Assembly: GCF_004323635.1 (NCBI RefSeq)
Contig: NZ_CP036515.1
Location: forward strand, 3,783,501 to 3,847,500
Length of the DNA: 64,000 bases
Direction: 5' to 3'
Origin: Lichenihabitans psoromatis
GTDB lineage: Bacteria > Pseudomonadota > Alphaproteobacteria > Rhizobiales > Beijerinckiaceae
The notes under the pieces are model-generated. The model made no database searches, was not told where the DNA came from, and saw nothing but the letters and a program-made list of their open reading frames with translations. Of the stretch, positions 59,181 to 62,250 are shown piece after piece. The stretch's first letter is position 1. Every line of letters starts with the position of its first letter. A program made the translations under genes and the position numbers.

Positions 59181-59260
59181 GACGTCCTCCACTCCATGAT
59201 CGTCTTGTGTCCCGGTGGCCCGGCGACCGCAAGATGACGGTCGGCATCCTGCGGTGTCGC

Positions 59261-59289
59261 TTGACCTCCGCGTGCCGGCGTTTCACTTA
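59261..59289 (+). promoter_or_regulatory. Candidate promoter of trpGDC
   Basis: TTGACC (59261-59266) is followed after 17 bases by CACTTA (59284-59289), about 30 bases before the trpG start. The -10 is weak. It would make trpGDC independent of the ppiD-trpE transcript. Confidence 0.35.
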
Positions 59290-59319
59290 ACGTGTTATTC
59301 TCTGGTTCGGACATGTCCG

Positions 59320-59925
59320 GTGCAAAACGTCACGCTTATCGACAATTACGACAGCTTCACCTGGAACCTGTTCCACTACCTCGGTGGGCTCGGTGCGACC
59401 GTGACGGTATGGCGCAACGACGAGGTCGGTGTCGCGGACGTGATGAATGGCAAGCCGGACGCCATCGTCCTGTCGCCCGGCCCCTGCTCGCCGCGCGAAG
59501 CGGGGGTCTGCATCGATCTGATCAAGGAAGCGGGCGCCACCACGCCCATTCTCGGCGTGTGTCTCGGCCATCAGGCGATCGGTGATGCCTATGGGGCCGC
59601 TGTCACGCGTGCCGCCTCGCCGATGCATGGGAAAGTCTCCGACATCCATCACACGGGTCGGACGATCTTCCGGGGCATCAACGGTCCGTTCCGTGCCACG
59701 CGATATCACTCGCTGATCGTCGATCGTGACACGCTGCCGGGCGACTTGAGCGTGACGGCCGAGACTGGCGACGGGGTCATCATGGGCCTGTCGCATCGGG
59801 ACCATCCAGTGCACGGCGTACAGTTTCATCCCGAGAGTTTCCATTCCGAGCACGGGCACCTCATCTTGAAAAACTTCCTGGATCTCGCGGTCGGCTGGAA
59901 CCGCCAAAGCCAGGCCGGGCGGTAG
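59320..59925 (+). CDS. trpG: Anthranilate synthase component II (glutamine amidotransferase)
   Basis: Class I glutamine amidotransferase (201 residues) that feeds ammonia to TrpE, and possibly to PabB. The start LIDNYDSFTWNL, the nucleophile in GVCLGHQ (C81) and the His-Glu pair in QFHPES are present. The GTG at 59320 is the only start that fits the family N-terminus. The ribosome-binding site is weak. trpD begins three bases after the stop. Confidence 0.95.
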   Translation: MQNVTLIDNYDSFTWNLFHYLGGLGATVTVWRNDEVGVADVMNGKPDAIVLSPGPCSPREAGVCIDLIKEAGATTPILGVCLGHQAIGDAYGAAVTRAASPMHGKVSDIHHTGRTIFRGINGPFRATRYHSLIVDRDTLPGDLSVTAETGDGVIMGLSHRDHPVHGVQFHPESFHSEHGHLILKNFLDLAVGWNRQSQAGR

Positions 59926-59928
59926 GGC

Positions 59929-60948
59929 ATGGATCAGTTCAAGCCCCTACTTGGCAAGGTCGCGACGGGAGCGACCTTGACGCGCCCCGAAGCCGAAACG
60001 GCTTTCAACGATATGCTCTCGGGCGAGGTCACGCCGGCGCAGATCGGCGCCTTCCTGATGGCGCTCCGCGTCCGAGGCGAGACGGTCGATGAGATCACGG
60101 GCGCCGTCACGGCCATGCGATCCAAGATGCTGGCCGTGTCGGCGCCCGACAATGCCGTCGACGTCGTCGGCACCGGCGGCGACGGAGCGGGCACCTATAA
60201 CGTCTCGACGCTGGCAGCCCTGATCGTGGCAGGTTGCGGCGTTCCGGTCGCCAAACACGGTAATCGCGCCGCGTCGTCGCGTTCTGGCTCCAGCGACGTG
60301 CTGACGGCGCTCGGCGTCAAAATCGGCATCTCGGCCGCGTTGGTGTCGCGTTGTATCAACGAGGCGGGCGTCGGTTTCATGATGGCGCAAACGCATCATG
60401 CCGCGATGCGCCATGTGGGCGCGGCGAGGTCCGAACTTGGCACTCGCACCATCTTCAACCTGCTCGGCCCGCTCTCGAACCCCGCCGGCGTGAAACGTCA
60501 GTTGCTCGGCGTGTTTTCCGCCGCGTGGTTGGAGCCGCTCGCCGACGTCTTGCAGCGCCTCGGCAGTGACCGACTTTGGGTCGTGCATGGGTGGGACGGG
60601 CTTGACGAATTGACGACGACGGGGCCGAGCACGGTCGTCGAACTCATCGATGGGGCGTTCCGTCGCTTTACCGTGATGCCTGAGGAAGCGGGTCTGAGCC
60701 GCGCCACGACGGCGGATCTTCGCGGCGGCGACCCGGCCCATAATGCAGCCGCTCTGCGGGGCGTTCTCGATGGTGCGCGCAACCCCTATCGCGACATCGC
60801 GGTGTTGAACGCGGCCGCGACCTTGGTGGTGGCCGGTAAAGCCGCAACTTTGATGTCCGGCGCGGCCTTGGCCACCCAGGCTCTCGAGAGCGGCGCGGCC
60901 CGCGCGCGCCTCGACAGTTTGGTGACCCTCTCCAACAGCCCGATCTAG
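59929..60948 (+). CDS. trpD: Anthranilate phosphoribosyltransferase
   Basis: Transfers phosphoribose to anthranilate (339 residues). The PRPP site [27 protein letters not shown], and [14 protein letters not shown] are all readable. It sits between trpG and trpC; its stop codon is part of the TAGGA that appears to serve as the ribosome-binding site for trpC. Confidence 0.97.
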
Positions 60949-60958
60949 GATCACGATC

Positions 60959-61765
60959 ATCACCGATATTCTCCGTAAAATTGAAGCCTACAAGCGCGAC
61001 GAGATTGCGGCCGCCAAAGCCGCCGTTACGTTGGGCGAGCTCGAGCGCCGGATCGCCGAAGGGGACGCGCCGCGCGGTTTCGTTGCGGCGATCCGCGCCA
61101 AGCTGAAGCAGGGCCGCACGGCCCTTATCGCCGAGATCAAGAAGGCGAGCCCGTCCAAGGGGCTGATCCGCGCCGACTTCGACCCGCCCGCGCTGGCTCA
61201 CGCCTATGCGGCCGGCGGTGCGGCCTGCCTCTCGGTTCTGACGGACGCCCCGTCCTTCTCCGGACACCCTGATTTCGTCAGGGCTGCACGATCGGCAGTG
61301 GCGTTGCCGGTGCTCCGCAAGGATTTCATGTTCGAGCCCTATCAGGTCGCGGAAGCGCGGGCCTGGGGCGCGGATTGCATTCTGATCATCCTCGCGGCGG
61401 TGTCCGATCAGGTCGCGGCAGACCTGACCGCGGCCGCCCACCATTATGGAATGGATGTGCTGGCGGAGGTTCATGATGAGGCGGAACTCGACCGCGCTCT
61501 GCGGCTGGACGCGACGCTGATTGGCGTCAACAACCGCAATCTCCGCACCTTTGAGGTGTCGCTCGCGGTTGCCGAGCGGCTCGCGCCGCATATCCCGGAT
61601 GATCGGATCGCGGTGGGCGAGAGCGGCATCTTCTCGGTCGCGGACCGCCAACGCTTAGCGGTGGTGGGGATCAACACGCTGCTGGTCGGCGAAGCCCTGA
61701 TGCGGCAAGACGATGTCGAGGCTGCCACCAAGGTTTTGCTGGCCGATCTTGCGGAGGCCACATGA
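60959..61765 (+). CDS. trpC: Indole-3-glycerol phosphate synthase, probable ATC start
   Basis: Closes the indole ring to form indole-glycerol phosphate. The barrel has [52 protein letters not shown] and GESGIFS. The conserved N-terminal helix [20 protein letters not shown] is present in frame, but between the upstream in-frame stop (60923) and a TTG at 61031 there is no ATG, GTG, TTG or CTG. The codon at the usual methionine position is ATC (60959), with AGGA eight bases before it (60947-60950). So either the gene uses ATC (268 residues), or it starts at TTG 61031 and lacks 24 residues, or the base call is wrong. The stop overlaps moaC (ATGA). Confidence 0.88.
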
Positions 61766-62250
61766 GCACCCTGACCCATATCGAGGCGAGCGGCGATGCT
61801 CGCATGGTCGATGTCTCCGACAAGGCGCAGACATCGAGGGTCGGCGTTGCGGAAGGCCTCGTCCTCATGCTGCCTGAGACGCTCGATCTCGTGCTCAGCG
61901 GTGACGCCAAAAAGGGTGACGTTCTGGGGACCGCTCGGATCGCCGGCATCATGGCGGCCAAGAAGACGCACGACCTTATTCCGCTCTGTCATCCTCTGCC
62001 GATCACATCCGTAAAGGTCGTGCTCACGCCTGATCGGGCCCTGCCGGGCATCCGCGTCGTCGCGACCGTCAAGGTCACGGGCCAGACCGGCGTCGAAATG
62101 GAAGCCCTGACGGCTGTCAGCGTCGCCTGCCTCACGGTCTACGACATGGTGAAGGCGGCCGATCGCGCCATGCGGATCGAGGGGATCCGCCTGCTCGAAA
62201 AGTCGGGCGGGAAATCCGGCCATTATCGCGCCGGGACCGACGCCCCATGA
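61762..62250 (+). CDS. moaC: Cyclic pyranopterin monophosphate synthase MoaC
   Basis: Second step of molybdenum cofactor synthesis (162 residues). The signature [15 protein letters not shown] and the [13 protein letters not shown] segment are present, with lysine and aspartate catalytic residues in the last of these. Overlaps trpC before it and moeA after it by four bases each (ATGA). The trpC-moaC-moeA-lexA order is common in alphaproteobacteria. Confidence 0.97.

Follow-up and report, generated by a model that had tools for sequence, protein, structure and literature searches.

A probable AUC start codon in trpC, shared with the closest relative in the genus

As a start codon, AUC should support initiation only very poorly, and the AUU that opens pcnB in E. 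coli is another near-cognate start. Experiments have characterised very few of the non-canonical starts in bacteria (PMC5472188). Those described in the same source include infC, which encodes IF3 and starts with ATT in E. coli and with ATC in Streptomyces, and Streptomyces sigR, whose GTC start was tested experimentally and is repressed by IF3; the sigR start is GTC in 32 of 34 species and GTT in the other two (PMC5472188). Out of 61,358 AUG starts in an ancestral reconstruction, 363 were replaced by GUG, 113 by UUG, two by CUG and one by AUU, and the passage with these figures lists no change to AUC (PMC5622118). Titles and listings of the open-licence literature yielded no report of a trpC gene with an ATC start, and the passages checked in PMC11497404 and PMC5576327 contain nothing on AUC codons.

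The window, i.e. the whole stretch of 64,000 nucleotides analysed here, comes from a genome searched as 4.84 Mb in three contigs, assigned to Hyphomicrobiales by the names attached to related TrpC proteins, and carries the gene order trpE, trpG, trpD, trpC, moaC and a moeA-like gene around the site of interest. The trpD gene (anthranilate phosphoribosyltransferase, 59929..60948, + strand; TIGR01245, 380.9 bits at a cut-off of 199.05) ends with TAG at 60946-60948, and 10 bases separate this stop from the ATC codon at 60959 discussed below. Read from that codon, trpC (indole-3-glycerol phosphate synthase, 60959..61765, + strand) encodes 268 residues, and its NF001370 score of 432.1 bits exceeds the cut-off of 348. 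Residues 2-263 align to profile positions 2-263 of 266, which places the protein in the family. The next gene of the run, moaC (61762..62250, + strand; NF006870, 239.1 bits, cut-off 162), overlaps the trpC stop with its ATG in the form ATGA, and the moeA-like gene scores below the cut-offs of its models. A single PF00218 (TrpC) match was found in the genome; trpF and trpA are present elsewhere, with a frame between them that we take to be TrpB-like from a sequence motif. The longest ORF call for trpG begins about 35 codons too early (window 59215-59329). An odd start for this gene was considered and rejected: GTG 59320, three codons upstream of GTC 59329, matches the relatives, so the trpG start is ordinary. 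Among the proteins retrieved, P0090 (436 aa, from a JGI contig) is a TrpC-MoaC fusion that combines PF00218 and PF01967 in one chain.

An in-frame TGA at 60923 closes the trpC frame upstream, and from 60926 on it is open. The sequence confirms what an earlier note on this DNA had claimed, namely that ATG, GTG, TTG and CTG are all absent from the trpC frame between this TGA and TTG 61031. The codons upstream of ATC 60959 are CCC TCT CCA ACA GCC CGA TCT AGG ATC ACG ATC, and those that follow it are ACC GAT ATT CTC (TDIL). Around the conserved N-terminus of TrpC a canonical codon is thus lacking, with none upstream in frame and none before codon 25. The ATC (60959..60961, + strand) does occupy the usual methionine position, as the note had it, since it aligns with ATG, GTG or TTG in 169 of 188 trpC starts. 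A Shine-Dalgarno sequence, AGGA (60947..60950, + strand), lies 8 bases ahead of it and overlaps the trpD stop, in line with the earlier coordinates; its predicted duplex with the anti-Shine-Dalgarno sequence amounts to -4.0 kcal/mol, and a near-cognate codon is thereby combined with a ribosome-binding sequence. The 16S 3' end reads ...GGATCACCTCCTTTCT in all three copies, a normal tail, and folding around the start is weak, with z values of +1.10 and +1.42. The program-made ORF list gives TrpC 244 instead of 268 residues because its first canonical codon is TTG 61031, codon 25. The database entry for the window's own TrpC (P0001) has 268 residues and starts MTDILRK, so an annotation from the ATC presumably exists already.

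On the strength of these sequence features, together with the ATC of the closest genome and the coding conservation of codons 2-22 described below, we consider it probable that trpC is translated from a genuine AUC start at 60959, which is what the note had proposed. Further near-cognate codons stand directly upstream in frame, ATC 60950, ACG 60953 and ATC 60956, and initiation could in principle fall on any or several of them. The spacing from AGGA shrinks to 5 bases for ATC 60956 and to 2 for ACG 60953, and ATC 60950 overlaps the AGGA itself. Moreover, the relatives start at the 60959 column. For both reasons ATC 60959 is favoured over its neighbours, and a start at the latter appears very unlikely.

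Among the other genomes searched, the best TrpC match is L003 (74% identical), which lies in G004, a genome from the same genus; it carries ATC at exactly the codon aligned to 60959. Its junction consists of the trpD stop TGA, then tcggagaaacaacgcc, then ATC GTC GAC ATC, with a Shine-Dalgarno sequence of its own, GGAGA, ahead of the ATC (-6.6 kcal/mol). As the spacer between trpD stop and ATC measures 10 bases in the window and 16 bases in L003, the shared ATC does not stem from a copied stretch. This comparison bears directly on the suggestion that a sequencing or assembly error had turned a canonical start into ATC. A change of one base would restore such a start, and the 169 relatives counted above have one. 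Still, the same codon recurs with a different flank in the separate assembly of the closest genome, and the site contains no homopolymer; a single-base error is quite unlikely as L003 has ATC too. Inheritance of a genuine, weak start, not a sequencing mistake, is the probable reason for the shared AUC.

The case of L003 is less clear-cut in one respect. An in-frame GTG is located 26 codons upstream, within trpD, and the absence of a canonical start holds for L003 only with this GTG set aside. In the database, its TrpC is P0015 (290 aa), which begins at this GTG; gene callers may have passed over the ATC because they do not accept it, and such an entry suggests that starts of this kind could escape them. 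The other four available members of the genus have canonical starts, ATG in G005 and GTG in G001, G002 and G003. Conservation of ATC in the aligned trpC starts of close relatives, the check that the earlier note had asked for, was accordingly found in the closest genome and not in the other four, i.e. in one of five other genus members, or two of six when the window is counted.

The junctions also bear on a +1 ribosomal frameshift near the trpD stop, which would yield a TrpD-TrpC fusion and do away with the need for a start codon. The trpC frame is indeed +1 relative to trpD and open from 60926 on, and the phase is identical in L003. Against this, no known slippery sequence was recognised at the trpD stop, stops and flanks differ between the window and L003, and by eye the phase varies among the relatives. 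We regard such a frameshift as highly improbable.

Comparison with L003 further addresses whether the region ahead of TTG 61031 is coding. Codons 2-22 (60962..61024, + strand) cover the N-terminal helix region of TrpC, and 13 of them differ between window and L003, 11 synonymously; third positions account for 12 of the 16 base differences. Two residue changes were observed where 9.0 were expected, and none out of 20,000 random placements gave a number as low. Across all 188 loci, which align here without gaps, TrpC positions 5, 8 and 12 never vary. At the level of sequence comparison, this shows codons 2-22 to have been constrained as protein since the two species parted, which speaks to the past and not to present-day translation. 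The N-terminal part of the window's TrpC aligns with the indole-3-glycerol phosphate synthase (IGPS) structure 3tsm from residue 2. The latter is a Brucella enzyme, and helix alpha0 forms the lid of the active site; in two IGPS enzymes, Km increases greatly once this helix is removed (PMC7681013).

These data were used to weigh a start at TTG (61031..61033, + strand), which would give a TrpC of 244 residues without the N-terminal helix, the 24-residue shorter protein that the note had offered as an alternative. It is the first in-frame ATG, GTG or TTG, codon 25 is TTG in L003 as well, and in L003 the 20 bases ahead of it pair with the anti-Shine-Dalgarno sequence at -6.4 kcal/mol, close to the value for those before the ATC. 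The truncated protein also stays above the NF001370 cut-off (399.1 vs 348 bits). In the window, conversely, no pairing precedes the TTG (+0.6 kcal/mol), and a start here would delete the alpha0 region, loss of which strongly raises Km in the two enzymes mentioned (PMC7681013). TTG occupies the codon-25 column in 9 of 188 trpC genes, window and L003 included. As 11 of the 13 changed codons are synonymous, initiation at TTG 61031 is disfavoured; it was rejected as main start and is judged unlikely. That trpC has simply lost its start and is decaying would explain why a canonical codon is missing, albeit the 268-codon frame is intact, can be matched along its length to the family model and to IGPS enzymes of solved structure, and shows coding constraint. 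Moreover, it is the single TrpC match in a genome that has trpF and trpA, and a second species, represented by L003, is in the same state. Decay of the gene thus strikes us as far-fetched.

The distribution of trpC starts was surveyed across 397 genomes of the family, in 385 of which TrpC was found. The start codon was determined for 197 loci, comprising that of the window, match loci (80 of 540 kept in one listing) and 60 short stretches, and removal of duplicates left 189, of which 188 were evaluable; the surveyed loci are mostly best matches and not a random draw. At the start column, 128 loci have ATG, 31 GTG, 10 TTG, two ATC and 17 another codon. In all 17 of the last group a canonical codon occurs upstream, at a distance of 1-21 codons, and the window is the sole row of 188 with no canonical codon at the column or upstream in frame. 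Seven loci (L057, L064, L079, L180, L182, L184 and L196), from three named Methylobacterium and four unnamed similar genomes, have no start at the usual trpC column, and their nearest upstream canonical codon is a TTG 14-21 codons away. This pattern hints that these Methylobacterium-type genes encode proteins extended at the N-terminus or begin at an unusual codon.

A search of the protein database, in which 8000 candidates were scored and the best 120 listed, placed 13 proteins above P0015. These (P0002-P0014, 75-79% identical) all have M at the start column, as read from the proteins only and among the 120 listed. In a tree of 66 TrpC rows, both ATC rows fall inside a clade of eight rows (support 97/88) that also holds P0002, P0004, P0005, P0007, P0008 and P0009. 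A single change to ATC was obtained in 23% of 200 bootstrap trees, and the drawn tree has two changes; one origin with a later return and two separate origins are both possible. Given the canonical starts of four genus members and the M-starting P0002-P0014, AUC has not become fixed within this clade.

A second putative near-cognate start was seen in infC, the classic example of such a gene. At the expected start column, ATT is present in all six genomes of the genus (loci L199, L198, L203, L202, L201 and L200). It precedes CGN CGN CCN ATG and has a GAGGAG/GGAGGA-type Shine-Dalgarno sequence upstream in each of the six; the in-frame ATG four codons downstream is likewise common to all, and in three of the six no in-frame canonical codon occurs upstream within the locus. 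Because infC has ATT in all six genomes, a near-cognate start, presumably controlled by IF3, is probably native to the lineage.

For trpC, ribosomes that end trpD at UAG 60946-60948 may reinitiate on AUC 60959; alternatively, the AGGA that overlaps the trpD stop could recruit 30S subunits to the AUC. AUC would be decoded by the ordinary initiator tRNA despite a mismatch at the third position, like AUU in infC, and the product would be the full-length TrpC of 268 residues with fMet first. Reinitiation declines with intercistronic distance, is aided by a Shine-Dalgarno sequence and is lowered by extra IF3 (PMC2268962), and the 10-base gap between trpD and trpC is compatible with it. We infer both actual use of the AUC and a contribution of reinitiation. 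By analogy with infC and sigR, and from the type of codon, the output of trpC may be expected to be low and restrained by IF3. A bolder extension, which we consider doubtful, is that selection keeps the AUC and that, with the ATT of infC, it puts tryptophan synthesis in this clade under IF3. Scarcity of the factor would then raise both, and TrpC would be the translationally set limiting step of the trpG-trpD-trpC-moaC-moeA run.

An unusual initiator tRNA that reads AUC was considered as well, although the search is uninformative because the genome sequence partly consists of N. Two patterns of the initiator tRNA arms had no match in this partly masked sequence; with one letter changed, a single match appeared on contig C2, where ARAGORN calls no tRNA. 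The initiator was not recognisable among the 49 tRNA matches when these were read with ARAGORN, which is equally uninformative given the N positions; these include two CAT tRNAs that we take to be elongator Met and Ile2. The same genome has a tRNA-like gene (L263/L268) that ARAGORN could not type and reads with a four-base anticodon (tccg), and that scores 52.6 bits with Rfam. No Rfam element exceeded its gathering score in the window, and a sub-threshold hit inside trpD (18.9 bits vs 82) was judged to be chance.

What is surprising here is that two species carry AUC at this position of a single-copy biosynthetic gene; the case is weakened by the upstream GTG of L003 and by the canonical starts of the other four genus members. 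The pair of species offers a natural test of AUC initiation behind a terminating ribosome. Compared with known systems, trpC resembles infC in combining a third-position-mismatch near-cognate start with a Shine-Dalgarno sequence. However, the product of infC is the fidelity factor, so that a feedback loop is closed, whereas trpC is a gene of a metabolic operon with no known feedback on IF3. With sigR it shares a rare non-canonical start codon seen in more than one species and a place in a multi-gene run, and both starts lie outside the ATG, GTG and TTG assumed by start prediction. Codon and pathway differ, and the sigR start has experimental proof and extends over 32 of 34 species, whereas the ATC of trpC, a start predicted from sequence, occurs in two of six genus members. 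Like pcnB, trpC is a housekeeping gene with a near-cognate start, albeit another gene with another codon. The trpC gene of this genome probably joins the known class of natural near-cognate starts.
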